DNA of 64,000 bases from Halosolutus gelatinilyticus (GTDB lineage Archaea > Halobacteriota > Halobacteria > Halobacteriales > Natrialbaceae). The stretch is from contig NZ_CP095492.1 in the NCBI RefSeq assembly GCF_023028105.1, positions 62,001 through 126,000 of the forward strand, given 5' to 3'. Each line of letters opens with the position of its first letter. Position 1 is the stretch's first letter. This document shows, in pieces, positions 35,799 to 55,240 of this stretch. The translations under genes and the position numbers were made by a program. A model generated the notes under the pieces. The model saw only the letters and a list, made by a program, of their open reading frames with translations. It was not told the DNA's origin and searched no databases.

Positions 35799-35880
35799 CT
35801 GTTGTGAGCCGTGATAGATCTGACTAAAGGCGTTCGGGGACTGCAGGCTTCCGATTGTCGTCAGTCTTTGTCCGGTGAGT

Positions 35881-35897: not shown

Positions 35898-35949
35898 CCC
35901 TCCGCTCCGCCACAGGACTTTTCCGTCAAGTCCCGTCCGTTCCACGGGA

Positions 35950-36069: not shown

Positions 36070-36152
36070 CCGTTTCGCGTCGTTTCGGAGGGCGACACGG
36101 CGTCGCGCTTACACCCATCGTGCGGTTCGAGCGTCGTCGTGCGACGCCCGGG

Positions 36153-36371
36153 TCAGCGTTCCCGGCGGAGGATCAGGTCCGCACCGCCCCACCAGTTGAC
36201 GACGGCCTCGTCGAGGTCCCACCCGTCGTGAGCGAGTTCGTTCAATAGCTGCTCGGTCTCATCATGCTTGATCCGGAACCAGAGGAGGCTGGAGGGCGCG
36301 GGGACGACTTTGTACTCGTACTCGCCGCTCCGGGGCGACTCGTCGCCGAAACGGTCAGTGAGATTGCTCAT
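36153..36371 (-). CDS. DUF4177-type small protein
   Basis: A 72-residue protein: EYEYKVVPAPS, then LLNELAHDGWDLDEAV and a final GGADLILRRER, which is the DUF4177 pattern (a short beta-alpha-beta unit of unknown function). ATG 36371 is the only reasonable start. It lies between the zinc-ribbon gene (opposite strand) and the IS6 element. Confidence 0.75.
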   Translation of the reverse strand: MSNLTDRFGDESPRSGEYEYKVVPAPSSLLWFRIKHDETEQLLNELAHDGWDLDEAVVNWWGGADLILRRER

Positions 36372-36420
36372 GAAGCCGGGAGATGAGGGGGCGACTCATA
36401 ACCGTTGTGGTGGCCCGTGA

Positions 36421-37119
36421 CGGTCGTGTTTAGTCAAGCGTGAAAAGTGAGACGGTGTGATTTCTTGCTGGTCTATGGCAGAAATCAGCCGCCTCGTCGG
36501 GTGTAGTGACTGGATCGACATGGAGGTTGTGGAGCGGGAACGGACACCCGAACCAGCGATGAAACTCGGTATTCAATTCCATCTAGCGGGTCTCTCGCTG
36601 TCGAATACCGTCTCGTTTCTCGCCGACCTGGGTGTCGAGCGCTCTCGGAACGCGGTTCATGATTGGGTGCGGAAAGCCGGTCTACAGCCTACCGAGGGCC
36701 GAAGCCAGAATCACGTCGTGCTGGACGAGACGGTGATTCGGATCAATTCCCAGCAATACTGGCTGTACGCTGCCTGTAACCCCGAAACAACCAATCTGTT
36801 TCACGTTCGACTCTTTCCGACTACGACGACCGCAGCAACCCAGATGTTCCTCGCTGAATTACGCGAGAAACACTCCGTCGATTCTGCCGTGTTTCTGGTC
36901 GATGGCGCTCAGCATCTCCAAACTGCGCTTTCCCGAGCTGGGCTTCGATTTCATCCTGAACGACATGGAAATCGGAACAGCATCGAGCGCATCTTCCGCG
37001 AATTGAAACGCCGAACGTCTTCGTTCTCGAACTGCTTTAGCCACGTTTTCCCTGAAACCGCTGAAAACTGGCTCCAAACGTTCGCTCGCTGGTTCAACGG
37101 GCCTAACTAAACACGACCG
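36421..37119 (+). mobile_element. IS6-family insertion sequence (complete)
   Basis: A 699-bp element with a perfect 14-bp terminal inverted repeat, CGGTCGTGTTTAGT at 36421-36434 and its complement at 37106-37119, enclosing one transposase gene. The 8 bases outside each end (GCCCGTGA and AATGAACA) do not match, so no target duplication is visible; an old or recombined insertion is likely. Confidence 0.85.
36475..37110 (+). CDS. IS6-family DDE transposase
   Basis: A 211-residue transposase. An N-terminal helix-turn-helix part (LSLSNTVSFLADLGVERSRN) is followed by the catalytic core: the first Asp in VVLDETVI, the second in FLVDGAQH and the Glu in HGNRNSIERIFRELKRR. The length and motifs match haloarchaeal IS6 elements that move by copy-in/replicative transposition. 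ATG 36475 is favoured over an upstream start at 36457. The stop codon overlaps the right terminal repeat. The gene looks intact. Confidence 0.9.
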   Translation: MAEISRLVGCSDWIDMEVVERERTPEPAMKLGIQFHLAGLSLSNTVSFLADLGVERSRNAVHDWVRKAGLQPTEGRSQNHVVLDETVIRINSQQYWLYAACNPETTNLFHVRLFPTTTTAATQMFLAELREKHSVDSAVFLVDGAQHLQTALSRAGLRFHPERHGNRNSIERIFRELKRRTSSFSNCFSHVFPETAENWLQTFARWFNGPN

Positions 37120-37415
37120 AATGAACAAATCTTGCGAGGAGCAGCGGGCGAGATGCTCCTCGAGAATCAACTGACACGTGCCTTTCTTTCAACGCGGTCT
37201 GCACCGACTCAGCTCCTATATGATAGAGCGTGTGTCTACCTAGAGCTATCTGCCGAGACGGAGATAGCGATCTACCGCAAAGAGATGATGAGCCGTCGCA
37301 CCGAAATCGAACCACCGCACAGCAATAGAGCCGCTGCACTGGTCATCAGGCGTTCGGACTTGAATCGCACCACAGTGTCGGATAGATTAACTGTCGAGTG
37401 AAATCAATCGTGAGT

Positions 37416-38078
37416 ATGCGCTATCTCACAGCTCGCCTCATCCCGAGTGAGGAAGGCGTCTTCCACCCCCTGGGCAGCGAACTCAGGGAAGAGCCGTCGG
37501 TACGCCGCGAAGCCATTCACCACGCAGAACACCTTGACGACGGCACCGTCGTCCTTCTAGCCGAGGCAAGCGGTAACCGCCACCGGTACGAGGAGATTAT
37601 GGCAGCCTCATCGCACGTTGACGACTTCCTCGTCGCCGGCGAAGAGCGGTGGATGTCGGTGAACTGATGCGAACCGACACACGCCATACGCCGAGCTCTG
37701 GAGCACCAACACGATGCCGGCGTAATCGCGGATATGCCCATCCGGTTCACCGGCGACGGGTCGATGCGGATCACCTACCTAGGGAGCGATACCGGGTTCC
37801 GGCGGCTGTTCGAGGAGGCGAACCAGCTGGAAGACGTGCCGTTCCGATTCGAGGTCGTCGAGATCGGCGACTACGAACCAGAGAGGGCGTCGCTGGTCAG
37901 CTCGCTGACGACGCGCCAGCGGAAAGTCATAGAGGTGGCTGTCGAGACCGGATACTACAGGTCGCCCCGAGAAACGAGCCTCGAGGATGTCGTCGACGCC
38001 GTAGGTATCGCTCCGTCAACCGCCAGCGAACACCTTCGAAAGATCGAATCCCGCGTCTTCTCGGCGCTTTTCGGGTAG
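37416..38078 (+). pseudogene. HTH-10 (bacterio-opsin activator-like) regulator, broken by one in-frame stop
   Basis: Two pieces in the same frame make one regulator of about 220 residues. The N-terminal part (MRYLTARLIPSEEGVF ... EERWMSVN) ends in TGA at 37665-37667, and the reading frame continues without interruption as CEPTHAIRRALEHQHD to the C-terminal HTH_10 domain (LTTRQRKVIEVAVETGYY, SLEDVVDAVGIAPSTASEH). Only one nonsense change is needed to explain it. A GATTAAC box about 27 bp before ATG 37416 shows the promoter remains. A restart at ATG 37734 could still yield a 114-residue DNA-binding fragment. Confidence 0.85.
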
Positions 38079-38168
38079 GGAGTGATTCAGATCGAATTGT
38101 GGAGTTAAAAATAGCCCTATGACTGCGGCAGCAACCATATTCAGCTACGTAGTTTATTCTCACTACTG

Positions 38169-39062
38169 ATGACGAACACAGAAACGCACCCGACCACCGA
38201 TGCATCGTTACTTGCTGATCACGATGTTGAATCTACCTATCGCGACGTAAATGACGTCCAATTACATGTCGTAGCCGCGGGTGAACCCGATGCCCCACTG
38301 GTCGTCCTACTGCATGGGCATCCCGATTTCTGGTACGGCTGGCGCGACCAGATCATTTCGCTCGTCGAAGCCGGCTTTCGTGTGATCGTCCCGGACCAGC
38401 GGGGCTCCAATCTGAGTGAGGCCCCCGACGAGATCGATGCCTATCGGCAATCAGAACTGTCTGCCGACGTATGCGAATTGATCCGGAGCGAGGGCCGGGA
38501 ATCGGCCCACGTAGTTGGACACGACTTCGGTGGATTCGTCGCCTGGAATGTAGCACTCCGTGACCCGTCAATCATCGATCGTCTCGGGATCTTAAATGTT
38601 CCACATCCAACGGTCTATCGAAACGTCTTACGAGCTAGCCCCCAACAGATCGTCCGGAGCTGGTACGTGTGGTTTTATCAGTTACCGAAACTACCCGAGT
38701 GGATGTTTCGTCGGAACGATATGGCCAATATGGTTGCTTCTCTTGAAGTAACTTCAAATCCTGGAACGTTCGACGAAGAAACGATCCATCGCTATCGGTC
38801 GGCCTGGCAACACACCGGCGTTGGTCCACGGATACACTGGTATCGCGGGTTTCGTCGTTCGGAACGCCCGCCACGCGACACCGTTGTCCAGCCGACGCTG
38901 ATTTGTTGGGGAGAAGATGACATAGCACTCGTCCCCTCGATGGCTAAAAAGAGCGTCGACTACTGTCAAAATGGGCAGCTACGAATGTTCCCTGAGACAT
39001 CACATTGGGTACACCATGAGCGTGAGGAAGTCACTAAAGCGCTACTGCGCCATTTCTCGTAA
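38169..39062 (+). CDS. Alpha/beta hydrolase, epoxide hydrolase/haloalkane dehalogenase type
   Basis: A 297-residue alpha/beta hydrolase. The oxyanion-hole segment is LLHGHPDFWYGWRDQ, the nucleophile Asp is in VVGHDFGGFVAW (Asp rather than Ser, as in epoxide hydrolases), and the acid and base are near CWGEDDIALVPS and MFPETSHWVHHE. It has no signal peptide. It has a different composition from the sugar genes and lies among mobile and broken genes, so it may be an acquired detoxification enzyme. The substrate is unknown. Confidence 0.85.
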   Translation: MTNTETHPTTDASLLADHDVESTYRDVNDVQLHVVAAGEPDAPLVVLLHGHPDFWYGWRDQIISLVEAGFRVIVPDQRGSNLSEAPDEIDAYRQSELSADVCELIRSEGRESAHVVGHDFGGFVAWNVALRDPSIIDRLGILNVPHPTVYRNVLRASPQQIVRSWYVWFYQLPKLPEWMFRRNDMANMVASLEVTSNPGTFDEETIHRYRSAWQHTGVGPRIHWYRGFRRSERPPRDTVVQPTLICWGEDDIALVPSMAKKSVDYCQNGQLRMFPETSHWVHHEREEVTKALLRHFS

Positions 39063-39984
39063 CCAACAGAACGGTTTCCAGGTCCCTGGCGCGTTAGCAG
39101 ATTGTGCTTCTCGTCTTTACCACCGGATGACGGCCGACGAAAGAGCAATCAGTCGATATACAGGCGAAATAGGAGTAATAGTTAAACTCCCTGCAATAGG
39201 TACCTATCTCCTCTGAATCGTGTGAACCACGCCTACGTCCTATAAATCCCAGACAACACTTCGATCGGTAACTGAGCCGATTCGGCCGCCTCCAAACTTT
39301 CGTATGATGCTCGTTATGGTTGTTACTTGTTCTACTATGCTCGTGAACTTGGTCCGCTATCAGATGTTTCTCGGTATCACTGTGATCGGCTTCTCGGATA
39401 TCGCTAGTAGCGGGGTTTCACCGGTACGTTTGCTCTTCCAAGGAGGTTGCCTCTCTAAAGATAGCTGCCATAATTGTTCTTGAGCTTGTCTACTCACCGC
39501 CGGATATGGACGAGATAGAAATAGTCAGAAAACTAGTTAGCTTCCGATCTTAATTCATTACTGTCATGTTTATCGACGTTTCGATTCATGGGTTCCGTAC
39601 TGAAATCGGGACCAGCATCGCTGGCGGGTCGCCTGCAGCTGTGGCACTCCATCAACGAGAAAGATCCATCTCCAACGCAATGGTTCTCACGGAGGTCCCT
39701 GAGGAACATCTCAATCAGTGCTCCTATTCCCATCAAAGTTGCCCACACTGCCGTTTTCAGCAATCGTAACTACGACGCTCCTTTGATGACCGTAGCGTCA
39801 AGGTGTCGTTACGATCTTCGGGTTGCCCGGGTGTTGTGGTTCAGGAAGTCCGCAGAACACGTTACTTACGCCGCTGATAAAACAGTATCATTATTTTCGG
39901 TTGCAGTCTAAGCGGAGACCGGTATCTGTACATATGTTTCCCGACAGTAAACGTTTTACGCATTCATGACAAGCGGTCTTACGA
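39063..39984. other. Gene-poor, relatively AT-rich stretch with a decayed insertion sequence
   Basis: From 39063 to about 39530 nothing is recognised. From 39533 to 39760 there is a decayed IS6 transposase fragment, listed separately, then about 200 bp to the IclR gene with no clear feature. Confidence 0.6.
39533..39760 (-). pseudogene. Decayed IS6-family transposase fragment
   Basis: On the minus strand IEMFLRDLRENH aligns with TQMFLAELREKH of the intact transposase, then with a frame change VDGVPQLQATRQR aligns with VDGAQHLQTALSR, and MNRNVDKHDSNELR with HGNRNSIERIFREL. The second Asp survives, but the protein is frameshifted and truncated at both ends. Nucleotide similarity (for example CGATTTCA and ATCGAAAC blocks) supports common origin with the element at 36421. 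Confidence 0.75.
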
Positions 39985-40731
39985 ATGACAGACAGTCAGC
40001 CCTCGATCGGGACCGTTGGAACGTCGTTCGAGATAATCGAAGGGCTGAACGAGCTCGGGGAGGCCGGCATCACCGAACTCGCACAGTACCTCGACAAGTC
40101 GAAGAGTTCTGTGTATAAACACTTGAATTCACTGTTGGAACTGGGTTATGTGACGAAGCAGGACGGGCGCTACAAGCTCGGACTAGCGTTTTTCCGCCTC
40201 GGTTACGGCATCCGCGAAGCCAATCGACTGTACAAGGCCGCGAGCGCCCCTCTCGATAATCTCGCCCAGACGACCGGCGAGACGGTATCCCTGATCGTCG
40301 AAGAGCACGGTGATGCCGTCTGTCTCTACCAGGCCAGCTCTCGCCCCGAGGGAATCAGGACGATCAGGGAGTCAGAGCGTGTGCCGCCGGACTCGATCAC
40401 GGCCGGAAAGGCCATCCTCTCTGGTCGGTCCACGTCCGAAGCTATCCAACTCCTAGATCGCCAGCACCAGGATGGTCAACAGGCATACTCCGAGCTATGC
40501 TCGGAGCTTGGATCGATCCACGAGCGGCAGGTGCTCATCGAGCGCTCACCTGACGAGTCTGACTGTAATGCGGTCGCCACTCCAATCTACGACGGGGACG
40601 ACTACGCCATTGGCGCGATCATGGTTTACGGTTCACCGACGAACATGGCAGGTAAACACCTGGAGGAGGACATTCCTGGCCTCCTTATCAGCACCGCGAA
40701 GACAATCGAGGTCGAACTCGCCACCCGATAG
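39985..40731 (+). CDS. IclR-family transcriptional regulator
   Basis: A 248-residue regulator. The N-terminal winged HTH includes GEAGITELAQYLDKSKSSVYKHLNSL (about 28-53), followed by YVTKQDGRYKLG and an effector-binding domain from about residue 80 (TGETVSLIVEEHGDAVCLYQ, RVPPDSITAGKAIL, DGDDYAIGAIMVYG). Haloarchaeal IclR proteins such as XacR control pentose catabolism, and this one precedes the GH51 gene by 242 bp on the same strand. It probably senses arabinose or a uronate derivative, but that is inference. It is the only intact sugar-type regulator in the window. Confidence 0.92.
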   Translation: MTDSQPSIGTVGTSFEIIEGLNELGEAGITELAQYLDKSKSSVYKHLNSLLELGYVTKQDGRYKLGLAFFRLGYGIREANRLYKAASAPLDNLAQTTGETVSLIVEEHGDAVCLYQASSRPEGIRTIRESERVPPDSITAGKAILSGRSTSEAIQLLDRQHQDGQQAYSELCSELGSIHERQVLIERSPDESDCNAVATPIYDGDDYAIGAIMVYGSPTNMAGKHLEEDIPGLLISTAKTIEVELATR

Positions 40732-40973: not shown

Positions 40974-43091
40974 ATGCGCGTGTCAGACGAGACGAGCGGC
41001 CGAGCGACGGTTAGTATTGACACCGCCGAACAGAGCGACTGGAGCGTCGACCCGCGCGTGTTCGGGAAGTTCACGGAGATGAACGGCCGCGAGGCGTACC
41101 CGGGAATCTACTCGGAGCACCTGGCGAACGGCTCGTTCGAGGAGTGGTACACCTGGCCCAAGCGGCCGCGCGAGGACGCTCCGGACTGGTGGTGCCGCAC
41201 CGAGGTCGTCCACCGGGACGTCGACCGGGAACCGAACGTGGCCTATCCGTGGGAGTCCCGTCGGGACGGACGCGTCACCTTCGAACACCTTGTCGGCGGC
41301 GTCCACGGCAGGGACGCCACTGTCCCGCCGAGGACCGACACGCTCGGCAGAGAGCACCGCGAGCCGCCCGCCCGCTACCAGCGGATCACCGTCTGGGAGG
41401 GCGAAGGCGGCGTCGTCCAGCGCCTCGCGCTCCCCGACGATCGGACCCTGGAGTACGTGCTCGAACTCAGCGTCCGCGGCGACGGCCACGACGAGGTCGA
41501 AATCGAAATGGAAGGCGCCGACGGAACGGTACTCGCTCGGGAGCTGGTGCCGGTGAGCGACGAGTGGCGGCGCCACGAAGTCACGCTCGAACTCGACGCG
41601 GAGAGCGACGATAGATACGAGAACTCCGCGTTCGGCGTCCACTCGCTGGTGCTCTCCGTCGAAGGGCGAGGGCACACCGACCTCGACTGGGCGAAGCTCC
41701 GAGCCGGCGACGCCGTGAACGAGAAGTTCAACCCGACGGCGATCGAGAACATCCGCGAGTACGGCGTCCCCTCGATTCGGTGGCCGGGAGGGAACTTCAC
41801 GAGTCAGTACCACTGGCGCGACGGCGTCGGCCCGCTCGAGGAGCGCCCGGTACGAACCGAGCTGCACTGGGGCGGCCTCGAACCGAACTACCTCGGGACC
41901 AACGAGTTCCTCGAATTTTGCGAGCTGGCGGACGTCCATCCCTACCTCAACGTTGGCTTCAGCGAGCACATCTCGCCCGTGGAGGCCGCCGACTGGGTCG
42001 AATACGTCAACGGAGACCCCGGGGAGACGAAGATGGGCTCACTCCGTGCGGAGCACGGTTACGAGGAGCCCTGGGGCGTCGACGTCTTTCAGGTGGGCAA
42101 CGAGGTGTGGGGTACCTTCCAGATCGGTCACACGGAGCCCGACGAGTACGGCCGACGATTCCGCGAGTACTACGACGCGATCACGGGCGTCGACCCGGGC
42201 ATCGACGTCGCGGCGACGGCGCTGGATCCCGGAATGCACACCTGGGGCGGCCCCGGCTGGAACGAGCGGTTCTTCGAGGCTGGCGGACGCGTCGCGGACG
42301 GTATCGACATCCACCGGTACGTCCACGGCGAAGCCGACGGGGACGCCGACGTCGACCCGATCGCGTTCAACCAGCAGCTCGTCCTCTTCCCGACGCAGTT
42401 CGAGGAGAACGTCGAGCGGTTGCGCGAGACGGCCGCCGAGTACGACGCCGATCCGGACGTGACGGTCGGCGAGTGGAACATGGGCGCGGGCGGCCTCCCC
42501 GACGGTCCCCGCGCGAAGTATGGTACGATGGCCCACGCCGCCTTCTGCGCGGGGATGTACAACGCCTTCCTCCGCCAGGGCGACGCCGTTCGGTTCGGCC
42601 ACCAACGCGACAACTCGTTCAAGCACCGCCCGTTCCCGAGCGACCTGCGGCCGTTCGAAACGGCGAACAACGCCGCGATGCGCCTGTACACCGAACGGCT
42701 TCGCGAGGGCGACTGGCATCACATCCCAGCCGCCGTCGACGGCCCGGGTGGGGATATCGACCGCCACGGCGAGCGGATCAGGGCGCAGGAGGACACGCCG
42801 TACGTCGACGCGGCGGCCGTCTGCTCGGGCGATGACGTCGCCGTGTTCCTCGTGAACCGCGACCTCCGCGAGGTCCGCGCGGCCGTCGTCGACCTGGGGG
42901 AGCTGGCCCCCGGCGACCAGGTCGCAGTCACTGTCCAGCGCGCCGACGATCCGCTCGACGACACCTGCGAGTGGGACGGCACCGTGTGCTACGAACTCGA
43001 GGAGCGTCGGATCGAGGCGGACGCCCGCGGACGCGTCGTCGTCGATCTGCCGCCGGCGGGCGTCGCTCGCGCCGACGCGACGCTCGACTGA
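40974..43091 (+). CDS. GH51-like alpha-L-arabinofuranosidase (no signal peptide)
   Basis: A 705-residue GH51-like enzyme in the same subgroup as the lipoprotein at 1529. Order: N-terminal GKFTEMNGREAYPGIYSEHL, a carbohydrate-binding-like insert (about 90-245), then the barrel with acid/base Glu 377 in VFQVGNEVWG and nucleophile Glu 500 in VTVGEWNMG, and a C-terminal beta domain. No Tat signal is present, so it should act inside the cell. Together with the extracellular paralogue it gives an outside/inside pair. A GCTTATTG box lies about 25 bp before ATG 40974, supporting its own promoter. Confidence 0.9.
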   Translation: MRVSDETSGRATVSIDTAEQSDWSVDPRVFGKFTEMNGREAYPGIYSEHLANGSFEEWYTWPKRPREDAPDWWCRTEVVHRDVDREPNVAYPWESRRDGRVTFEHLVGGVHGRDATVPPRTDTLGREHREPPARYQRITVWEGEGGVVQRLALPDDRTLEYVLELSVRGDGHDEVEIEMEGADGTVLARELVPVSDEWRRHEVTLELDAESDDRYENSAFGVHSLVLSVEGRGHTDLDWAKLRAGDAVNEKFNPTAIENIREYGVPSIRWPGGNFTSQYHWRDGVGPLEERPVRTELHWGGLEPNYLGTNEFLEFCELADVHPYLNVGFSEHISPVEAADWVEYVNGDPGETKMGSLRAEHGYEEPWGVDVFQVGNEVWGTFQIGHTEPDEYGRRFREYYDAITGVDPGIDVAATALDPGMHTWGGPGWNERFFEAGGRVADGIDIHRYVHGEADGDADVDPIAFNQQLVLFPTQFEENVERLRETAAEYDADPDVTVGEWNMGAGGLPDGPRAKYGTMAHAAFCAGMYNAFLRQGDAVRFGHQRDNSFKHRPFPSDLRPFETANNAAMRLYTERLREGDWHHIPAAVDGPGGDIDRHGERIRAQEDTPYVDAAAVCSGDDVAVFLVNRDLREVRAAVVDLGELAPGDQVAVTVQRADDPLDDTCEWDGTVCYELEERRIEADARGRVVVDLPPAGVARADATLD

Positions 43092-43307: not shown

Positions 43308-46300
43308 ATGACAGACGGAGATACGCCAGACGACCGGCGGAGAGAGCACAGACCATCGATCGACGAGACGGACGTCCCGCGACGGACATTCCTGACCGGC
43401 TTGGCGGCCGCAGGCGCGCTCGGCGCGGCCAGTTCGGACGGCCTGGCTGACGGCGTCGCGGCCGAATCGACGGCCACCGGCGAAACAGGCTGGGAACCCG
43501 CTGAAGTTCCCTTCGGGATGGAGACGCCCTGGACGAGCGATGTGGGCCCGGAGAACGCCCGGCCGGAGTATCCGCGGCCGCAGATGGTGCGCGAGGAGTG
43601 GCGGAACTTAAACGGCGTCTGGCAGTTCGCCGGCGCCGCCGAGAGCGAGTCGCCGCCGATCGGGGAGGCGCTCGGCGAGCGAATCCTCGTTCCGTATCCC
43701 GTCGAGTCGCCGTTATCGGGGATCGCCCGCCACGAGACGTGGATGTGGTACCGACGGCGGTTCGAGGTCCCCGACGAGTGGATCGTACCGACTGCCCATT
43801 CGGGCAACGTCGAGAACAACCCGAATGCTCAGCGGCTCTTGGTGCACTTCGAGCGAGTGGACTGGGAGGCGACCGTCTACGTCAACGGCGAGGAGGTCGC
43901 CCGACACAAGGGCGGGTACGATCATTTCGTGGCGGACGTCACCGACGCGCTCGTCGAGGACGGCCCGCAGGAACTGGTCGTCGGCGTCTACGACCCGACC
44001 GGAAACAACACCGAACCGATCGGCACGCAGCCGAAGGGGCGCCAGGGCGTCGGCACCGGCTACGGCGGCGAAGGAACACTCTGGATGACACCGACCTCGG
44101 GCATCTGGGATACGGTGTGGATGGAACCGGTCGCCGAAGCGCACATCGAGGAACTGCAACTGACACCGGACCTCGGCGAGGAGGTGCTCCGGCTCACCGC
44201 CGAAGCGCCCACCGACGACGCGACGGTGGTCGCGACGGCCTACGACGAGGACGACGAGAAGGTCGGGCGCGTCACCGGACCAGTCAACGAGGAACTGGAA
44301 CTCCCGGTACCGGACCCGCGCCCGTGGTCGCCCGACGATCCGTTCCTCTACGACCTCGAGGTGGAACTCCGCCGCAAGGACGGGCCGGGTCGGGTCGCGG
44401 AGGCTGGCGGCGGGAAGCTCCTGGACCGCGTCGAGAGCTACTTCGGCATGCGTTCGTTCGGGATGCGCGAGATCGGCGGCGTCGCCCGGCCGACGCTCAA
44501 CGGCGAGCTGTTCTATCCCATCGGCACGCTCGACAGCGGCCAGTGGCCGGACGGCCTCTACGCGGCGCCGACCGACGAGGCGCTGGTCTGGGAGCTGCGG
44601 GCCCAGAAGGAACTGGGCTACAACATGGTGCGCAAGCACGGCAAGGTCGAGACGCGGCGGTGGTTCTCCCACGCGGACCGGCTGGGACTGCTCGTCTGGC
44701 AGGACATGCCCAACATGGAGGAGCCCGCGTTCGAGGGCCTCGATGTCCCGTGGGAAGAGTTCGACCGCGACCAGTTCGAGACCGAGCTCCGCGCGGTCGT
44801 CGACGAACTCGATGGCCACCCCTCGATGTCCGTCTGGATCCCGTTCAACGAGGGCTGGGGGATCCCGGCCGGCGACGTCGAGTACGTGTCGGAGATCGCC
44901 GACAAGGTCGCCGAGTGGGACCCCGAGCGTCTCGTCAACCCGATGAGCGGCTACAACAAGCAGATCGGCGGCCCGAACCGCGAGTGCGGCTGTGGCGACG
45001 TCAACGACGTCCACGAATACCCCGGCCCGATCGCGCCGGAGCCGGAACCGGATCGCATCTCCGCGCTCGGCGAGTTCACGACGCCGTCGTACGGCGTCGA
45101 GGGCCACGTCTGGGGCGACATCAACACCGGCTCTACGGCCGACCGGTTCGTCGAGGAGTACGTCGAGGGCGTCCGCGAACTCCGGGAACTCGTCGTTTCG
45201 GAGGGGCTCAGCGCCTCCGTGTACACCGCGACGACCGACCTCGAGAACGTCGGGAACGGCCTGATCACCTACGACCGCGAGGTCGTAAAGCCCGACCGCG
45301 CCCCCGACGGCGTCCGGCAGGTCCGCGAGGCCCACGACCGGCTTACGGGTGCGGCCGCGGACCTGATGGCGAACGTCTCGATCGATATATCGGTTCCCGA
45401 CACGTATCCCTCGGGCGGCCTGCTCGGCTCGTCCGGCGCGCTGGAGCTCACCGCCACGCTGGAGAACCCGGAGAGCGCCCCGTCCGTGGCGGAGCCAGTC
45501 GAGGACGTCGCGTTCGACCTCGGTCTGCCCGACGGCTGGACGGTCGCGGACGCTTCGGGGACCGAGGTCGACGCGGTCGAGAACGGCGAGTCGGCGACCG
45601 CGATCTGGGAGGTCGTCCCCGACGCGACGACCGCCGGCGACGCTACCGTCGAGATCGGGATCGACTACGGCGTCGCCGGCGAGCGTTTCCGGTTCGCCGA
45701 CGAGCGCTCCATGAGCGCGAGCCTGCTGGCGTACTACCGCTTCGAGGGGAACTTTCGCGACAGCTCGACCTACAGCAACGCCGGCGTGCCGGTCGGCGGC
45801 GCCAGCACCGACGACGTCGCGATCGAGGGACAGTCGGCCATGGTGCTGGACGGTGAGGACGACTACGTGCTGCTCGCCGAGCAGGGCGATCACTTCCTGT
45901 CGGACGCGTTCGCGCGGCGGTCCGTCTCGACGTGGATTCGCCCCGAGTCGACCGATGGCGTCCAGTGCATCTACAACGAGGGCGGAATCTACAACGGGTT
46001 CGGACTCCGCATCGAGGACGGCTCGCTCGTTGCCGGCGTCTCGAACAACGGCGCGCTCGTCACCACCAGCGCGCCGTTCGACCGAACGGAGTGGACCCAC
46101 GTCGTCGCGATCTTCGACGAGGGGATGCTCCGACTCTACGTCAACGGCGAGGAGGTCGCTGCGAACGAGGACGTCGGCTTCGACACGGTGCCTGGTCACG
46201 TCGGCGGCGCTGAGATCGGCAGCTCCACGACGACGACCCCGTGGGGCAGCGAGGTGAACTTCTTCGGCGGGCACGTCGACGCGACGGCGATCTTCGCCGA

Positions 46301-47303
46301 CGCGCTCTCGGAGGACGCGATCGAGACGCTCGGCTCGCTCACCTTCTCCGTCGACGCGCCAGCGTCGTACGACGCCGGCGGAGAGGGCGTTCCGCCGGAA
46401 TCGTTCGCGCTCGACGCGTCGCTCTCGGACCTCCGGACCGACGACGGGACGGGCTCGGCCCTCGAGAACGTCTCGTTGACCGTCGTCGACCTGCCGGACG
46501 GCTGGACGGCGGAGGCGGTCACGCCGACCGAGTTCGACGCTGTCCCCAACGGCGAGGCCGTAACCGCCACCTGGGAGATCACCCCGGAGACGTCGACCCG
46601 CGGCGAGGCCGACGTTACCGTCGACGCCGTCTACGACCTCGGCGGAGAGCGGCGCCGGGTCACCGGCGGCGCGGTCCTCTCACCTGTCCGGATCGCCCAC
46701 TGGCCCCTCGACGGCACGACCGAGGACGCGACGGGCAGCGGTCACGACGCCAGCCTCGAGAACGGCGCGGCGTTCGACGATCAGGTGGCCGTCCGGGGGG
46801 GCTACTCGGTGGCGCTGGACGGCGACGACGATTTCGTCGACCTGGCCGAAGGCGGCGACGACTTCCTCTCGCAGTCGTTCACGGAGCGGACGGTGACGAC
46901 GTGGGTCAGACCCGAGACGACCGCGGGGAGCCAGGTGCTGTACAACGAGGGCGCCGCGGCCAAGGGGCTCGTCGTGCGCATTAACGACGGCGCTCTCGAG
47001 GCCGCGACGATAAACAGCGGGACCGCAGTCGCGATCGAGGCGCCGTTCGACCGGACGGAGTGGACCCACGTCGCGGTCGTCTTCGACCGGGGGGCGTTCC
47101 GCCTCTACGTCGACGGGACCGAGGTCGCCGCGAACGAGGACGTCGGGTTCGCCTCGACCAGCGGCGGGTACTGGGGCGGCGAACTCGGCGGCGCGGAGGT
47201 GGCCTACTGGACGGGCAACTTCGCCGGCCACGTCGACGAGTCGGCGATCTACCGCGAGGCGCTCTCGGCCGACCGGATCGCGGCGCTGGCGAACGCGGTC
47301 TGA
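43308..47303 (+). CDS. Secreted GH2 glycosidase with two LamG domains (copy A)
   Basis: About 1,331 residues. A Tat motif (PRRTFLTGLAAAGALG) marks export without a lipobox. GH2 domains follow: sugar-binding (about 85-280), Ig-like, TIM barrel with acid/base Glu 515 in IPFNEGWG and nucleophile Glu 589 in SALGEFTTP. After the barrel come two units, each an NEW3-like beta domain (SVPDTYPSGG ..., SVDAPASYDAGG ...) followed by a LamG/concanavalin jelly roll (LLAYYRFEG ..., IAHWPLDGT ...) with WTHVVAIFDEG and WTHVAVVFDRG. The LamG domains probably bind polymer. The sugar specificity (galactose, galacturonate, glucuronate) is not settled. ATG 43308 is preferred to 43275. Confidence 0.9.
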   Translation: MTDGDTPDDRRREHRPSIDETDVPRRTFLTGLAAAGALGAASSDGLADGVAAESTATGETGWEPAEVPFGMETPWTSDVGPENARPEYPRPQMVREEWRNLNGVWQFAGAAESESPPIGEALGERILVPYPVESPLSGIARHETWMWYRRRFEVPDEWIVPTAHSGNVENNPNAQRLLVHFERVDWEATVYVNGEEVARHKGGYDHFVADVTDALVEDGPQELVVGVYDPTGNNTEPIGTQPKGRQGVGTGYGGEGTLWMTPTSGIWDTVWMEPVAEAHIEELQLTPDLGEEVLRLTAEAPTDDATVVATAYDEDDEKVGRVTGPVNEELELPVPDPRPWSPDDPFLYDLEVELRRKDGPGRVAEAGGGKLLDRVESYFGMRSFGMREIGGVARPTLNGELFYPIGTLDSGQWPDGLYAAPTDEALVWELRAQKELGYNMVRKHGKVETRRWFSHADRLGLLVWQDMPNMEEPAFEGLDVPWEEFDRDQFETELRAVVDELDGHPSMSVWIPFNEGWGIPAGDVEYVSEIADKVAEWDPERLVNPMSGYNKQIGGPNRECGCGDVNDVHEYPGPIAPEPEPDRISALGEFTTPSYGVEGHVWGDINTGSTADRFVEEYVEGVRELRELVVSEGLSASVYTATTDLENVGNGLITYDREVVKPDRAPDGVRQVREAHDRLTGAAADLMANVSIDISVPDTYPSGGLLGSSGALELTATLENPESAPSVAEPVEDVAFDLGLPDGWTVADASGTEVDAVENGESATAIWEVVPDATTAGDATVEIGIDYGVAGERFRFADERSMSASLLAYYRFEGNFRDSSTYSNAGVPVGGASTDDVAIEGQSAMVLDGEDDYVLLAEQGDHFLSDAFARRSVSTWIRPESTDGVQCIYNEGGIYNGFGLRIEDGSLVAGVSNNGALVTTSAPFDRTEWTHVVAIFDEGMLRLYVNGEEVAANEDVGFDTVPGHVGGAEIGSSTTTTPWGSEVNFFGGHVDATAIFADALSEDAIETLGSLTFSVDAPASYDAGGEGVPPESFALDASLSDLRTDDGTGSALENVSLTVVDLPDGWTAEAVTPTEFDAVPNGEAVTATWEITPETSTRGEADVTVDAVYDLGGERRRVTGGAVLSPVRIAHWPLDGTTEDATGSGHDASLENGAAFDDQVAVRGGYSVALDGDDDFVDLAEGGDDFLSQSFTERTVTTWVRPETTAGSQVLYNEGAAAKGLVVRINDGALEAATINSGTAVAIEAPFDRTEWTHVAVVFDRGAFRLYVDGTEVAANEDVGFASTSGGYWGGELGGAEVAYWTGNFAGHVDESAIYREALSADRIAALANAV

Positions 47304-47400
47304 GGCCGTCTCCAGCGCTTTCTTTTTCGACGACGTCTGGCAGGAGGAGGCAGACGTCGGCGGCGACGCGATTTCTACCGTTCGTCGCTGTGCCCACACG

Positions 47401-47478
47401 ACGACGGTCCTGATCACCGGCGTCAGCGGACTGATCGGCTCCGCCCTGACCGGCCACCTCGGCGGCCGATGCGAACTC
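47401..47478 (+). pseudogene. Fragment of an NAD-dependent epimerase/dehydratase
   Basis: About 26 codons reading TTVLITGVSGLIGSALTGHL, the TGxxGxIG Rossmann start of extended SDR sugar epimerases or dehydratases. The frame then runs into unrelated sequence. It is only the N-terminal beta-alpha unit of a lost gene. Confidence 0.6.
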
Positions 47479-47504
47479 CCGGGAATGGTTCCGATCGAGA
47501 CGGA

Positions 47505-47933
47505 CTCTTTTTCCATTCGCACACGAGGTCGTCGAGCGTCCGGAGCGTCTCCGTCCCAGCGGTGGACGTAGTACACGTTGAGGTAGTCTGTCCCGAGTTG
47601 TCGAGGGCCCCCTCGATCTGCGCTCGGACGTGCTTGCGTCCGAGCCCCGGTCGCTCGGGCGGTCGCCGACCGGGAAGAACACTTTCGAGAGGTCTTCGCG
47701 GTCGCGGTCTTCGAGCCGCTCGCCGATCCAACGTTCCCTGATGTCCGGCGGGTCGCCGTAGACGTCGGCCGTGTCGACGAAGTTGACGCCGTCTCCTGTG
47801 CAGTATCGAGCAGTTCGTGGGCCTCCTCGCGAGTCGTCTCGGTCGTGTCGTCGAAGTCTATTCCGAACCGCCACGTTCCGACGTAGAGCTTCGAGACGTG
47901 CAGGCCCGTCGAACCGAGCGTAGTGTACTCCGT
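47505..47933 (-). pseudogene. Aldo/keto reductase pseudogene with several frameshifts
   Basis: Minus-strand pieces reassemble an aldo/keto reductase N-terminal half: EYTTLGSTGLHVSKLYVGTW, then GVNFVDTADVYGDPPDIRER, KVFFPVGDRPSDRG, GRKHVRAQIEGALDN, NVYYVHRWDG and TLRTLDDLVCEWKK. Each piece is in a different frame from the next, so at least three or four small indels are needed. The start codon is ACG at 47933. The conserved Asp-Tyr active-site pair of VDTADVYG is still visible. The gene stops abruptly near 47505. Confidence 0.8.
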
Positions 47934-47960
47934 GGATCGTCGGCGGCTGCGTGTCGATCC

Positions 47961-49163
47961 TCAGTTGAAGTACTCCGGATCGGGATACGGGAACGAGTGG
48001 TTCTGCCACCCGTCGGGGTAGTACCGTTCTACGCCGGCGAGGGCGTCGCGGTCGGAGGCGTCGAACGGCGTCCCATCCTCGTGGAACAACCCGTTGACGC
48101 GCCCGTTCTGGCGCGGCGTCTGCAGGTACGCCGGCTTCAGCATCAACTGCCAGAAGAAGTCGCCGTCGATCTGCCCGTTCGCGTGCGCGTCGTCGACGAT
48201 CGGGGCGAGCGACTCGTAGTTGGGCAGGAATCTGTTCGGCGGTTCCTCGCGGGTGCGCTGCCACTCGGTGCACCACAGCGGTTTCCCCGTGTTGGCGCGG
48301 TGCTGCTCGGCCTGCGCGAGGTAATCCCTCGCCGCCTGCTCGTCGACCGGCAGGTTCATGTGAAATTGGTGGATGTCGAGGTCGTCGTTCTCGTCGTACA
48401 CGTCGTTGTACTGGAAATCCTTGCAGCCCATCGTCACCGTCCCGTTCGGCGCGTTCGCGACGAATTCGGCGAGCATGTCCTTCACGAAGTCCTGTCGCGG
48501 TTGCACGTCGCCGGGTTCGTTCATGATCTCGGTAGCGAGCAGCCGCGAGTCCTCGCCGAACTCCTCGGCCCACCGGCGCGTGAAGTGCAGCGGCGACCGT
48601 GCCCATCCCGACCAGTCCCGCGGCTGGATGACGTTCTCGCGGGATGGCGAGTGAACGCCGAACGCCGTCTCGGGGTCGGTGTCCGTCCGGTTGGCCTCGG
48701 TCGGTTCGTCCTCGGGCGGCGCCTCGAAGAGCACCAGGATCGGTCGGATGCCGCGCGCGTCGCACTCCGTGAGGAAGTGTTCGACGTGCGCGAAGAACGA
48801 CGGTCCGTCCTCCTGCCAGTACTCGTATGACGCCAACACGCGCAGCGAGTTCAGGCCCAGCGACCGCGCGTAGTCGAGGTCCCGCTCGATCTCGGCGTTC
48901 GCGTAGTTCGACCAGATCTGGTAGTTGTTCCAGGAGCCGTACTGGAAGTACTGTGCGCCGCGGATCCCGGTGAGGGCGTCCGGATAGGCCGCCGCGCTCG
49001 CGGCGGCCGTCAGCAGGCCCGACCCGGCCGTCGCCGCTCCGACCGCGCCCACCGTCTTCAGGTACATCCTGCGGTCGGGGTCGCCGAAACGCTCGACCTC
49101 GGTGGCGCGTTCGCTATCGCCGTGACTATCCGATACCTTGTCGGCAGCCGTCTCTCTTGACAT
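47961..49163 (-). CDS. Secreted GH5-like endoglycosidase
   Basis: A 400-residue clan GH-A enzyme. The N-terminus has a Tat motif RRMYLK (31-36) and a hydrophobic stretch to about residue 60, so it is exported. The barrel shows NSLRVLASYEYW, the acid/base Glu 216 in ATEIMNEPGD, HQFHMNL and the nucleophile Glu 300 in PLWCTEWQR, the GH5 order. The length suits an endo-beta-glucanase, mannanase or galactanase; sequence alone does not choose. It lies between the two inverted GH2-LamG genes and probably helps degrade the same polymer. Confidence 0.83.
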   Translation of the reverse strand: MSRETAADKVSDSHGDSERATEVERFGDPDRRMYLKTVGAVGAATAGSGLLTAAASAAAYPDALTGIRGAQYFQYGSWNNYQIWSNYANAEIERDLDYARSLGLNSLRVLASYEYWQEDGPSFFAHVEHFLTECDARGIRPILVLFEAPPEDEPTEANRTDTDPETAFGVHSPSRENVIQPRDWSGWARSPLHFTRRWAEEFGEDSRLLATEIMNEPGDVQPRQDFVKDMLAEFVANAPNGTVTMGCKDFQYNDVYDENDDLDIHQFHMNLPVDEQAARDYLAQAEQHRANTGKPLWCTEWQRTREEPPNRFLPNYESLAPIVDDAHANGQIDGDFFWQLMLKPAYLQTPRQNGRVNGLFHEDGTPFDASDRDALAGVERYYPDGWQNHSFPYPDPEYFN

Positions 49164-50272
49164 GCACCCTATCTATCGGTGAACAATGTAATAAAAGTAT
49201 GTAAGAAACCGAAGTTCGATACGCTCGCCCTCGAACGCGAGCTTCCGCGCGTCGCCATGGTCCGAATGAAGATCACCGCGGAGTTCTCCAGGTACGCTGC
49301 TGTTGCTTGACCATCTCTCGGGCCTCGAGCGCCTTCTCCCACTCGTCGAAGTAGTACCGATACTAGCTCGTCACCGACGACCGATTCGAGTGTTCCTCGA
49401 CGGCGAATACAGCTCCTGCGAGTAATAATCCCCAATGCCGGCGGGTCCAGAGCCCGTATCCGGCGGCCAGTGCGGCGACTCCGAGCGACAGATACCAGGC
49501 ACACTCATGATGCCGAGCACCAGTAGCGCGACGCCAACGAGAACTGCATAGGCTGCGATACCTTTCACATCGAACGGGATTACTGCCCGGTTCGAAGCGA
49601 CCTGCGGTACCCTTCTTACAAATATCATTTCCTGTGATCGCGGTGATGAGTCGATCTATTTCGTCCGTGGGTCAGATCGCCGACAGGGATCGGCACTACG
49701 CGCGTAGTGTCGATCGATGAATTTCACAGTAGGAAACGTGTATCGATCGAAACCGGTGCGGATCGAAGAACCAGTCGCGGTCACGAACCATTCGTACTTT
49801 CTGCTCTCATCGGCAGCGGTACTGAGGCAGTTGCGAGGGCGAATTCGTTCACCGACAAGGAACGCAAACCGATTTTCCGGACTCGACTGGCGAAATACAC
49901 TTCGAAATATTATGAACGATTATAGAATTTACATGCATACACCTGTAAATATATGTCGAATTCCAGAACGTTCGAGGAAAACCGTATCCCAGAAAGAAAC
50001 GGTTCCGTGCTGCAGTCGTCCTCTTGCCCGGTGAAGAACTCGAAGGTCCGGACACAATGGTCCGTCGCGTTTAAACGACCAACGACGAAGTCTCCCGAAA
50101 CTACCATTTCTACGCGCCAAAAGCGGCGGCGGCTGGTCCGACGGCCGGCAGCAGTTCGTTCGTCCGAGCGGTGCAAGTTCGCGCAACTGTCACCTCGAAT
50201 CGACGGGACGGGTTGTCCGTTCGTTCACCGCCCCGGCGGGACCGCGCCTGTCCGCCCGCGCCGATCAGTCGG
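49164..50272. other. 1.1-kb gene-poor region with a broken membrane protein
   Basis: At 49320-49628 on the minus strand a membrane protein relic is seen, listed separately. From 49630 to 50272 no gene, repeat or known site is recognised. Confidence 0.55.
49320..49628 (-). pseudogene. Frameshifted small membrane protein
   Basis: The minus strand starts MIFVRRVPQVASNRAV and a helix GIAAYAVLVGVALLVLGIM, then the hydrophobic coding continues in another frame as WYLSLGVAALAAGYGLWTRR and HWGLLLAGAVFAVEEH. Two helices in two frames suggest one haloarchaeal multi-helix protein of unknown function broken by an indel near 49500. Confidence 0.45.
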
Positions 50273-53200
50273 TCATACGCTCTCGAACAGCTCCGTTAGC
50301 CGGTCCTCGGAGAGCGCGGCGGAGTAGACTGCCGTCGCGTCGACGTGCCCGCCGAAGAAGTTCTCCTGCCCGTCGTTCCACGGAGTCGTCGTCACGGAGC
50401 CTCCGACGGCGCTTCCAGCGACGTGATCCGGAACGGTCTCGAAGCCGACGTCTTCGTTCGCAGCGACCTCCTCGCCGTTGACGTAGAGTCGGAGCATCCC
50501 CTCGTCGAAGACGGCGGCGACGTGGGTCCACTCCGTCCGCTCAAACGACCCCCCGACAGTCACGGTGGTGCCGCTGTTCGCCGCACACGCTTCCAGGGTG
50601 CCGTCGTTGAGACGGATCGCGAACCCATTGAAGTGGCCGCCCTCGTTGTAGATGCACTGAAGGCCGCTCGTCGAGTCCGGCCTGATCCACGTCGACACCG
50701 TCCGCTCCGTGAAGGCGTCGTGCAGGATTCCCTCGTTGAAGTCGGAGATCAGCGCGTAGTCGTCCTCGCCGTCGAGGGTCAGTGAGTACTCGCCTTCGAC
50801 CGCGATCTGATCGTCGAAGCCGGCGCCGTTTTGCAGCGAAACCGGATTGTCCAAGTTCGAGCTATCCGCGGGACTGTCCTCGAACTGCCAGTAGGCGAGC
50901 AGGGACGGGGTCAGTTCGCGCTCGTCGACGTGGGAGAGGCGTTCGCTGCCGATCGTGTAGTCGACCGCCACTTCGAGCGTGACGTTGCCGGCGGCCTCAT
51001 CGGGGGTGATCTCCCAGGCGACGGTCACCGACTCCCCCTCGTCGACCGCGTCGATCTCAGTCTCTCCGTCGGGCGCGATCGACCAGTTGTCCGGCAGTCC
51101 CGAGACGGACATAGCGACGTTTTCCACGGTAGCGCCCACCGCTTCCCCACTCTCCGGGTTGGCGAACGTGGCGGCGATTTCGAACGGGTTCGGCGAACCA
51201 AGGACGCCGCCCGAGTCGTACGAGCTGGGCACCTCGACGTCGATAACCGCGTTCCCCATCACGAGTTTCGACTCCTCGATGATTGTTTCGTGCGCCTCGC
51301 GGATTCGCTCGAGGCCGTTCTCCGCTAGCGTCGGTTTGAAGACCTCACGGTCGTAGGTGACATGTCCGTTCGTGACGTTCTCGAGGTCCGTCGTTGCCGT
51401 GTACACCGACGCGCTCAATTGCTGGCCGACCATGAGGGTCCGGAGCTTGTCGACGCCCTCGACGTACTCGTCGACGAATTGCTCGGGCGGGACGTCGGTG
51501 TTCGGCTCGCCCCAGACGTGGCCCTCGACGGCGACTGACGGCGTCGTGAACTCGCCGAGCGCGGAGATGCGATCCGGTTCCGGCTCCGGGGCTTTCGGAC
51601 CGGGGTACTGGTGGACATCTTTGATGTGGCCGGCACCCGAGTCGCTGTTGGACCCGACGTCGTAGCCGCTGTTGGCGTCGACGAGTCGCTCGGGATCGAG
51701 TTCCGCGATCATCTCGGTGACCTCCCTGACGAAGTCGAGGTTGTCGTTGTAGATCCCCCAGCCCTCGTTGAACGGCGTCCAGACGGCCATCGACGGGTGC
51801 GTGTCGTGCTCGGAAACGATCGCCCGGACTTCCCTCTTGAAGTGGGCGCGAGTGTCGCCGTTCCGTATAAGTTCCAAGTCGTCCATGTTGGGCAGGGATT
51901 CGTGCATGTTGGGGATATCCTGCCAGACGAGCAGTCCCAGCCGATCGGCGTGGTAAAACCACCGCCGCGTCTCCACGGTGGCGTGCTTGCGCACCGTATT
52001 GTACCCGAGTTCCTTCTGGAGTTCGAGATTGTACCGCTGGGCCTCGTCGGTCGGCGCGGTCTGAAGGCCGTCGGGCCACGTGCCGCTCTCCAGCGATCCG
52101 ATCTGGTAGACCATCTCGCCGTTGAGCGTCGGCCGCGCCGTCCCGCCGACTTCCTGCATTCCCAGCGAACGCATGCCGAAGTAGCTCTCGACGCGGTCCA
52201 GGAGCTTCCCGCCGCCCGCTTCGGTGGCCCGGCCGGCGCCGTCCTTGCGGCGGAGCTTCACGTCCAGATCGTAAAGGAACGGGTCGTCCGGGCTCCAGAG
52301 GCGCGGGTCCGGGACCGGGAGTTCCAGTTCCTCGTTCGCGGATCCGATAACGCGACCCACTTTTTCGCCGTCCTCGTCGTAGGCCGTCGCGACCACCGTC
52401 GCGTCGTCGGTGGGCGCTTCGGCGGTGAGCCGGAGCACCTCCTCGTCGAGATCCGGCGTCAACTCGAGATTCTCGACGTGCGCTTCGGCGACCGGTTCCA
52501 TCCACACCGTATCCCAGATGCCCGAGGTCGGCGTCATCCAGAGCGTTCCTTCGCCGCCGTAGCCGGTGCCGACGCCCTGGCGCCCCTTCGGCTGCGTGCC
52601 GATCGGTTCGGTGTTGTTTCCGGTCGGGTCGTAGACGCCGACGACTAGTTCCTGCGGGCCGCCCTCGACGAGCGCGTCCGTCACGTCCGCCACGAAATGA
52701 TCGTACCCGCCCTTGTGTCGGGCGACCTCCTCGCCGTTGACGTAGACGGTCGCCTCCCAGTCCACTCGCTCGAAGTGCACCAGGAGCCGCTGAGCGTTCG
52801 GGTTGTTCTCGCCGTCCTCGGGATCCGCCTCCGGCACGATCCACTCGTCGGGGACCTCGAACCGCCGTCGGTACCACATCCACGTCTCGTGGCGGGCGAT
52901 CCCCGATAACGGCGACTCGACGGGATACGGCACGAGGATCCGCTCGCCGAGCGCCTCCCCGATCGGCGGCGACTCGCCCTCGGCGGCGCCGGCGAACTGC
53001 CAGACGCCGTTTAAGTTCCGCCACTCCTCGCGCACCATCTGCGGCCGCGGATACTCCGGCCGGGCGTTCTCCGGGCCCACATCGCTCGTCCAGGGCGTCT
53101 CCATCCCGAAGGGGACGGGTTTCGGTTCCCAGCCGGACTCCACGGGCTTGGCCGCCGCGCTTGGCTTGATCCCGACGCCGCCGAGGGCTCCGGTCGCGGC

Positions 53201-53308
53201 CAGCCCCTTCAGGAAGCCGCGCCGCTCTAGCCTGCCGACTGTCGCGTCGTCTGTTCGGTTGTTCTGGTTCGGTTCGTCTCTCGCGTCGTCTGTCGAGTTG
53301 TCGCTCAT
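50273..53308 (-). CDS. Secreted GH2 glycosidase with one LamG domain (copy B)
   Basis: About 1,011 residues, a close paralogue of the protein at 43308. A Tat motif LERRGFLKGLAATGALG precedes the mature start GWEPKPVPFGMETPWTSD, which is nearly identical to copy A through the sugar-binding domain. The acid/base Glu is in WTPFNEGWG and the nucleophile in SALGEFTTPS. One NEW3-like unit and one LamG (LLAYWQFEDSPADSS ..., WTHVAAVFDEG) follow, so it has one C-terminal unit fewer than copy A. ATG 53308 is used. It is inverted relative to copy A and probably acts on related but not identical chains. Confidence 0.9.
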   Translation of the reverse strand: MSDNSTDDARDEPNQNNRTDDATVGRLERRGFLKGLAATGALGGVGIKPSAAAKPVESGWEPKPVPFGMETPWTSDVGPENARPEYPRPQMVREEWRNLNGVWQFAGAAEGESPPIGEALGERILVPYPVESPLSGIARHETWMWYRRRFEVPDEWIVPEADPEDGENNPNAQRLLVHFERVDWEATVYVNGEEVARHKGGYDHFVADVTDALVEGGPQELVVGVYDPTGNNTEPIGTQPKGRQGVGTGYGGEGTLWMTPTSGIWDTVWMEPVAEAHVENLELTPDLDEEVLRLTAEAPTDDATVVATAYDEDGEKVGRVIGSANEELELPVPDPRLWSPDDPFLYDLDVKLRRKDGAGRATEAGGGKLLDRVESYFGMRSLGMQEVGGTARPTLNGEMVYQIGSLESGTWPDGLQTAPTDEAQRYNLELQKELGYNTVRKHATVETRRWFYHADRLGLLVWQDIPNMHESLPNMDDLELIRNGDTRAHFKREVRAIVSEHDTHPSMAVWTPFNEGWGIYNDNLDFVREVTEMIAELDPERLVDANSGYDVGSNSDSGAGHIKDVHQYPGPKAPEPEPDRISALGEFTTPSVAVEGHVWGEPNTDVPPEQFVDEYVEGVDKLRTLMVGQQLSASVYTATTDLENVTNGHVTYDREVFKPTLAENGLERIREAHETIIEESKLVMGNAVIDVEVPSSYDSGGVLGSPNPFEIAATFANPESGEAVGATVENVAMSVSGLPDNWSIAPDGETEIDAVDEGESVTVAWEITPDEAAGNVTLEVAVDYTIGSERLSHVDERELTPSLLAYWQFEDSPADSSNLDNPVSLQNGAGFDDQIAVEGEYSLTLDGEDDYALISDFNEGILHDAFTERTVSTWIRPDSTSGLQCIYNEGGHFNGFAIRLNDGTLEACAANSGTTVTVGGSFERTEWTHVAAVFDEGMLRLYVNGEEVAANEDVGFETVPDHVAGSAVGGSVTTTPWNDGQENFFGGHVDATAVYSAALSEDRLTELFESV

Positions 53309-53788: not shown

Positions 53789-55240
53789 ATGACTCGACCG
53801 AACGTCCTCTGGATCTGCACCGACCAGCAGCGCTTCGACTCGCTGGGCTGTTACGGCAACGAGTACGTCGATACGCCGAACATCGACCGCCTGGCCGATC
53901 GCGGCGTCCGGTTCGACCAGGCGGTCTGTCAGAACCCCGTCTGCGCGCCGAGTCGGGCGAGCTTCCTCACCGGCCGCTACCCGCGGACGACCGGCGTTCG
54001 GCAGAACGGCCAGCAGATCCCCGAGACCGAGACGCTCGTCACGAAATCGCTGGCCGACGACGGGTACACCTGCGGCCTCGCCGGCAAGCTCCACATCAGC
54101 CCGTGTAACCCCCGCGCGGAGTGCCGGCCCATGATGGAGACGCGGATCGACGACGGCTACTCCGAGTTCCGCTGGTCCCACGATCCCAACCGGACGTGGC
54201 CGACCAACGAGTACCGCCAGTGGCTCCGGGAGCGCGGCGAGGAATACGACCCGACGCCTCATCCGGACTCGGAGTACGTCGAGATGGGCGTCGCCCCCGA
54301 GAACACGCAGACCGCCTGGTGCGCCCAGAAGGCGATCAACTTCGTCGAGGAGGCCGCGGACTTCGAGCAGCCGTGGCTCTACTCGGTGAACTTCTTCGAT
54401 CCGCACCACCCCTTCGTCGCGCCCGAGGAGTACCTCGAACGCTACGAGGAGATCTTGGAGGAAATCCCGCTCCCCGAGTACGAGGAAGGGGAACTCGACG
54501 ACAAGCCCGACTTCCATCGGGACTACCACGAGGGCGCGTACCGCAACCCGAACCTGTTCCCGTTCGCCGAGATGGACGAGACGGACCACCGGTTGCTCCG
54601 GGCAGCCTACTGGGCGATGGTCGACCTGATCGACGACCAGGTCGGACGCCTGCTCGACGCCCTGGAGCGATCCGGTCAGCGCGAGAACACGCTCGTGATC
54701 TTCATGTCCGACCACGGCGAGCTGCTCGGCGACAACGGCGCCTACCTCAAGGGGCCGTTCTTCTACGAGCAGTCCGTCCGCGTGCCCCTGATCGTCTCGT
54801 GGCCCGGCGAGATCCGCGAGGGCGTCGTCAGCGACGCGCTGGTCGAACTCGTCGACCTCGCGCCGACGCTGCTGGACGCCGCTGGCGTCGATCGTGAGCC
54901 GGGGATGCAGGGCCGGTCGCTCTGGCCCCTGCTCGCAGGCGAATCGGACGTCGACGAGCACCGCGACGCCGTTTACGCCGAGTGCTACAACTCGCCGGGC
55001 GCGATCTGGGACGAGACGCGCCAGTACGTGACGATGGTTCGAACCGACCGGTACAAGCTCACCAAGGTACACGGCGAGGACACCGGGGAGCTCTACGATC
55101 TCGAAGCGGATCCCTCGGAGACGGACAACCTGTGGGACGATCCCGAGTACGCCGACCGCAAGGCCGAGTTGCTCTCGCGGCTCACCGACCATATGGCCTG
55201 GACGATCGACCCGCTGCCCGAGCGGGAAGCACCCTTCTGA
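53789..55240 (+). CDS. Sulfatase (formylglycine type)
   Basis: A 483-residue S1-type sulfatase. The metal Asp is in ICTDQQRFDSLGC (about 11-12), the formylglycine motif is C52-A-P-S-R in PVCAPSRASFLTGRYP, and the second metal site is MSDHGE (Asp 308, His 309). The end YDLEADPSETDNLWDDPEY is typical. Cys-type sulfatases need a formylglycine-generating enzyme, which is not in this window. There is no signal peptide, so it should remove sulfate from imported sugars or oligosaccharides, which suggests that sulfated (for example algal) glycans are used. The next gene, a PiT-type permease, is convergent. Confidence 0.92.
   Translation: MTRPNVLWICTDQQRFDSLGCYGNEYVDTPNIDRLADRGVRFDQAVCQNPVCAPSRASFLTGRYPRTTGVRQNGQQIPETETLVTKSLADDGYTCGLAGKLHISPCNPRAECRPMMETRIDDGYSEFRWSHDPNRTWPTNEYRQWLRERGEEYDPTPHPDSEYVEMGVAPENTQTAWCAQKAINFVEEAADFEQPWLYSVNFFDPHHPFVAPEEYLERYEEILEEIPLPEYEEGELDDKPDFHRDYHEGAYRNPNLFPFAEMDETDHRLLRAAYWAMVDLIDDQVGRLLDALERSGQRENTLVIFMSDHGELLGDNGAYLKGPFFYEQSVRVPLIVSWPGEIREGVVSDALVELVDLAPTLLDAAGVDREPGMQGRSLWPLLAGESDVDEHRDAVYAECYNSPGAIWDETRQYVTMVRTDRYKLTKVHGEDTGELYDLEADPSETDNLWDDPEYADRKAELLSRLTDHMAWTIDPLPEREAPF

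Follow-up and report, generated by a model that had tools for sequence, protein, structure and literature searches.

In Haloferax volcanii, gene conversion is very efficient and leaves long tracts and no chimeric genes; it tolerates 74% identity and takes place in a polyploid host (PMC8223754). Recombination between two sod genes of the same sequence, sod1 and sod2, has also rearranged a Haloferax chromosome (PMC6063281). On the enzyme side, GH2_18 and GH2_19 are two GH2 subfamilies active on furanosides, archaea included, and the ORF1110 enzyme of Streptomyces sp. JHA19 (PDB 9J6M, 9J6N) was placed in GH2_18 (PMC12243196). Our literature searches returned nothing useful on gene conversion among paralogous glycoside hydrolases of archaea or on galactofuranose in haloarchaea.

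The pair of GH2 genes analysed here, A and B, resembles all three systems in part. Similar to intermolecular conversion in H. volcanii, it involves non-reciprocal homogenisation of homologous sequence in a haloarchaeon, and gene conversion of A and B is a clear case of an already known kind. However, the Haloferax events are allelic with long tracts, whereas A and B are paralogues with tracts of ~740 bp and 70-80 bp inside the genes (PMC8223754). The absence of chimeras and the length of the Haloferax tracts count against a short-tract explanation of our pair. As with sod1/sod2, the exchange between A and B would be an ectopic homologous recombination of gene copies that share one haloarchaeal replicon; the sod genes, however, are direct repeats that split the chromosome, while A and B are inverted and no rearrangement was seen (PMC6063281). 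With ORF1110, the two proteins share a GH2 core over about 600 residues, including the conserved catalytic Asp and Glu residues, but the ORF1110 tail is AbfB in place of NEW3-LamG, and its E594 and the FGG after the nucleophile are Val and changed, respectively, in this haloarchaeal clade. Taken together, we put a probability of roughly 85% on A and B being an old GH2_18-type pair, paralogues or co-resident homologues, with an N-terminal block homogenised by conversion; the recombination mechanism and the furanosidase function are what we infer for it.

The gene pair and its surroundings

Gene A (43308..47303, + strand; ORF, Pfam and phmmer) encodes a predicted Tat-exported, GH2_18-like GH2 protein with two NEW3-LamG units in tandem, and gene B (50273..53308, - strand; ORF, Pfam and TAT signal) encodes one of the same type with a single NEW3-LamG unit. 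Counted from their Met starts at 43308 (+) and 53308 (-), the proteins are 1331 and 1011 aa long, and each has a twin-arginine signal and a GH2 core. The genes converge, their stops lying 2969 bp apart, which bears out a first-pass annotation of two GH2 LamG genes in opposite orientation about 3 kb apart. Pfam detected Laminin_G_3 and NEW3 (NPCBM_assoc) in both, and the reported difference of two units in A and one in B was recovered as well. The genes had further been called near-identical. This holds for 43510-44251, where the proteins are 95% identical, but not for the whole length, over which identity is 68% and very unevenly spread. Beyond 44254 it falls to 65% in the barrel and about 55% in the tail. 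At the DNA level there is a single inverted match of 2864 nt at 78%, which is far above chance. The 5' ends and upstream regions have nothing useful in common; since the upstream regions are without homology, a recent segmental duplication was rejected as the origin of the pair.

Both genes are carried by a large secondary replicon, a 562-kb contig in a haloarchaeal genome of 4.76 Mb and 4 contigs. Within the window (the whole 64,000-nt stretch analysed), an alpha-L-arabinofuranosidase-like gene lies upstream of A (40974..43091, +; ASD1_dom, with the ArfA model below its cutoff), a sulfatase gene is divergent from B (53789..55240, +), and a GH5-type gene with a Cellulase fold occupies the spacer (47961..49163, -; PF00150, E 1.5e-6). 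Remains of an aldo-keto-reductase-like gene, recognised by eye and by a scattered tblastx match to L055 5175-5609, are present at 47320-47960, together with an epimerase-like fragment. Adjoining the carbohydrate gene cluster, window positions 32000-40000 have a lower GC content (48-62%) and contain a DDE transposase remnant (36457-37110). A second convergent pair of GH2 paralogues consists of a gene at 4038-6773 (-) and a partner immediately outside the left edge of the window, at about G000:C2:58480-61120 (+). Its members, on the same replicon, are 44% identical in protein and about 70% in DNA and have no conversion tract; the pair serves as a negative control.

Evidence for homogenised tracts

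The main tract spans the jelly-roll and reaches into the Ig-like domain, at 43510..44251 (+) in A and 52369..53113 (-) in B, the latter coordinates being taken from exact matches. Inside this block of about 740 bp, A and B share exact DNA runs of 135, 95, 100 and 101 nt. Their 4-fold sites are identical at 121/132 positions (92%) in the block versus 116/186 outside (Fisher 8.5e-10), a contrast that does not appear in the B-Y29, A-H30, B-H30 or Y29-H30 comparisons and is weak in A-Y29 (p 0.037). Y29, from Halobacteriales archaeon YIM A00010 (L029), and H30, from Halomarina rubra (L030), are the only two close relatives found; both genes encode GH2 + NEW3 + one LamG. In keeping with the 4-fold sites, dS between A and B is 0.11 [0.06-0.16] in the block, as against 0.66 [0.52-0.84] for the remaining GH2 core and 0.65 for the tail, with a dN of 0.26 and a dS of 0.66 over 44254-45350. 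Applied to A, B, Y29 and H30, a permutation test of the Sawyer/GENECONV type recovered 43510-44251 at p<1/2000, and the main block persisted when only silent sites were used. Low nucleotide identity despite protein similarity, the pattern looked for as a refutation, is absent from the block. Silent-site contrast, fragment test and tree incongruence thus agree in upholding the suggested conversion between A and B. Two dense patches of difference occur inside the block, at 43787-43810, where B is the odd one relative to the relatives, and at 44151-44176, where A is, as if both had been left unconverted.

The extent of the block is at odds with two further claims of the annotation, that near-identity runs through much of the barrel and that conversion keeps the catalytic parts alike. 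It ends at ~44251 in the Ig-like domain, at residue 326, within the Pfam Glyco_hydro_2 match (residues 289-393). Based on the GH2 fold, the catalytic barrel would begin near residue 410, so it belongs to the diverged parts. The opposite of the second claim was therefore seen: homogenisation affects the accessory N-terminal domains, and the barrel has diverged.

Trees gave different topologies for tract and flank. In the block tree, A and B pair as sisters (100/99), and a B+Y29+H30 grouping is rejected (p-AU 0.004). In the tail tree, A+B is rejected (p-AU 0.019) and A joins Y29 at 93/94. Barrel-only trees are weak in placing A and B and do not reject them as sisters (p-AU 0.12-0.23), so the incongruence rests on the tail. 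With barrel and tail combined, A+B is borderline (p 0.057) and B+Y29+H30 is rejected (p 0.033), which suggests a mosaic as opposed to one clean event. The barrels and tails of A and B differ from each other almost as much as they differ from those of relatives in other haloarchaea.

Two shorter tracts were also detected. One in the LamG core of A (46111..46186, +; partner in B about 50436-50511) has a 58-nt exact run and was recovered by the fragment test at 46118-46183 with p<1/2000, making a further A/B conversion of ~70 bp well supported. Another, over the nucleophile motif PEPEPDRISALGEFTTPS (45036..45118, +; partner in B about 51507-51589), has a 53-nt exact run, but its fragment test (45038-45116, p 0.035) is marginal, and this tract of about 80 bp is no more than a marginal candidate for conversion. 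The closest pairing also shifts along the genes, with B much closer to Y29 at 44868-44958 and A closer at 44700. Because different stretches favour different pairings, it is likely that several exchanges, or unequal rates, lie behind the pattern.

Gene neighbourhoods were considered as well. The L029 gene is accompanied by a sulfatase, an arabinofuranosidase-like gene and an ABC importer. The sulfatase, directly upstream, is 63% identical to the one beside B, and the importer is 67-74% identical to that at 58-62.5 kb of the window. By position B is therefore tied to Y29 more strongly than A is, but in the tail tree it is A that joins Y29; such a conflict is what mosaic exchange would leave. 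L029 and L030 have one copy each of this GH2 subtype, and so no conversion partner is available there. YIM A00010 holds an additional, more distant GH2 homologue at 53%.

Based on these observations, we propose that A and B are long-diverged paralogues or co-resident homologues encoding secreted GH2_18-type furanosidases. The ~740-bp block, which encodes the jelly-roll together with a portion of the Ig-like domain, was homogenised much later, along with at least one more short tract in the LamG core. As a mechanism we infer that the inverted copies recombined homologously, either within one molecule or between sister molecules of a replicon that is probably polyploid, and that these events were resolved as short, non-reciprocal tracts with no net inversion. 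Barrels and tails would be free to differ in specificity and binding.

Inverted arms and competing explanations

Long inverted repeats had been placed around 47.3-50.3 kb, but repeats in that spacer reach 37 nt at most and do not rise above chance level. The sole long arms sit inside A and B, at 43506..44581 (left) and 52041..53116 (right); they are 1076 nt long, 91% identical and 7459 nt apart. The flippable segment was thus misplaced, and a crossover between the arms, possible in principle, would invert 44.6-52.0 kb. Since the arms lie in the genes, such a flip would give each promoter and 5' end the barrel and tail of the other gene. This raises an improbable alternative in which the block is the crossover zone of a recombinational switch, with each promoter and signal peptide alternating between two barrel-plus-tail cassettes. 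The geometry allows it, with exact runs of up to 135 nt in the arms; the homogenised block is preceded by unrelated 5' ends and followed by 3' parts that have diverged; the sod recombination is a precedent for rearrangement (PMC6063281); and the gene mosaics exceed the complexity of one tract. However, no evidence of flipping was found in the one assembly, which has one orientation, the spacer lacks dedicated repeats, and the additional LamG tract falls outside the arms. The same data are explained by conversion without crossover. A broader form of the idea, a natural domain-swapping device with recurrent exchange through the N-terminal block by either conversion or the 44.6-52.0 kb flip, seems to us equally improbable. 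If it were true, two promoters and signal peptides would trade diverged catalytic barrels and LamG tails.

Haloarchaea exchange DNA readily, and the block could have arrived from another cell as a horizontally acquired allele of one gene instead of from the neighbouring copy. A search of two further genomes of the genus found no homologue of A or B, which favours an outside source and indicates that the whole cluster was either acquired or lost elsewhere; plasmid records contained no close copy of the locus. Nevertheless, an outside donor would have to nearly equal the resident copy, and a copy 7.5 kb away already does. We rate this origin slightly below the switch.

It is more doubtful still that short reads of two similar copies were mixed during assembly. 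The longest exact shared run, 135 nt, is near short-read length; however, the block retains clustered differences, the second convergent GH2 pair has no such block, a separate short tract exists in LamG, and the genome consists of 4 contigs. Purifying selection acting on the N-terminal domains, with no conversion, is hardly credible: the block does exceed the barrel in conservation among the relatives too (75-77% aa to L029/L030), but silent sites are also alike, dS differs sixfold and the other pairs have little or no silent-site rise, so that regional constraint is ruled out as its cause.

Enzyme family, tails and meaning

Returning to the conversion-homogenised GH2_18-type pair, the solved structures closest to A and B are the beta-D-galactofuranosidases 9j6n and 9j6m (E about 1e-128). 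By phmmer, A matches 9j6n with an E value of 1.5e-129, and matches to 9J6M (7e-129 for A, 1e-127 for B) run from residues 65/72 to 680/690, which is the whole GH2 core. In the Streptomyces enzyme, mutants of D423, E464 and E530 have 1.8, 2.6 and 15.2% activity left, and an E594 mutant has 11.3% left (PMC4560423). The first three align with D477/E526/E600 of A and D474/E525/E596 of B (ORF numbering), and the acid/base NE motif, the nucleophile Glu and the D423-equivalent Asp are present in both. A, B, L029 and L030 have Val in place of E594. This glutamate is not known as defining for GH2_18, and the change makes transfer of the substrate uncertain, such that the substrate may differ; it would lower the claim of Galf specificity, not that of fold or family. 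Both the E594 counterpart and the FGG that follows the nucleophile Glu are missing from the L029/L030 clade, while the other haloarchaeal homologues G036, G336 and G340 keep them wholly or partly. From sequence, these losses hint at a different substrate for the L029/L030 clade. Our best guess is that A and B are furanosidases, acting on beta-D-Galf or alpha-L-Araf, that would trim a (possibly sulfated) furanose-bearing polysaccharide, a role suggested by the neighbouring arabinofuranosidase-like, sulfatase and GH5-type genes.

The second NEW3-LamG unit of A (46332..47300, +) groups at 94/93 with G220/G286, tails from two other haloarchaeal genomes, one of them belonging to a PhoD phosphatase. 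An origin as a copy of A's first unit was rejected, as a clade of the two units gave a p-AU of 0.018. It was probably gained by domain shuffling. NEW3-LamG tails 48-49% identical to B's also occur in L057 (4487-7087) and L058 (about 4560-7110, -), as in a mobile tail domain. The tails had been suggested to tune polymer binding; in L057, though, the tail is fused to a PhoD phosphatase, and the domain is therefore not specific to polysaccharidases. A structure model of the tail (pLDDT 66, moderate) matched generic concanavalin-like/lectin-like jelly rolls, the first being arabinanase AbnA, and we take this as a statement of fold only. The Streptomyces enzyme stays active without its own tail domain (PMC4560423), which would fit A and B tails that are free to change.

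In conclusion, A and B offer a clean example, with outgroups at hand, of diverged haloarchaeal paralogues that underwent conversion in short tracts, and these intragenic tracts form a mild contrast with the long, non-chimeric tracts of Haloferax (PMC8223754). Whole-gene similarity of such pairs masks different catalytic barrels, and annotating both from the N-terminal half would mislead. The pair also adds archaeal members to a little-studied furanosidase branch of GH2.
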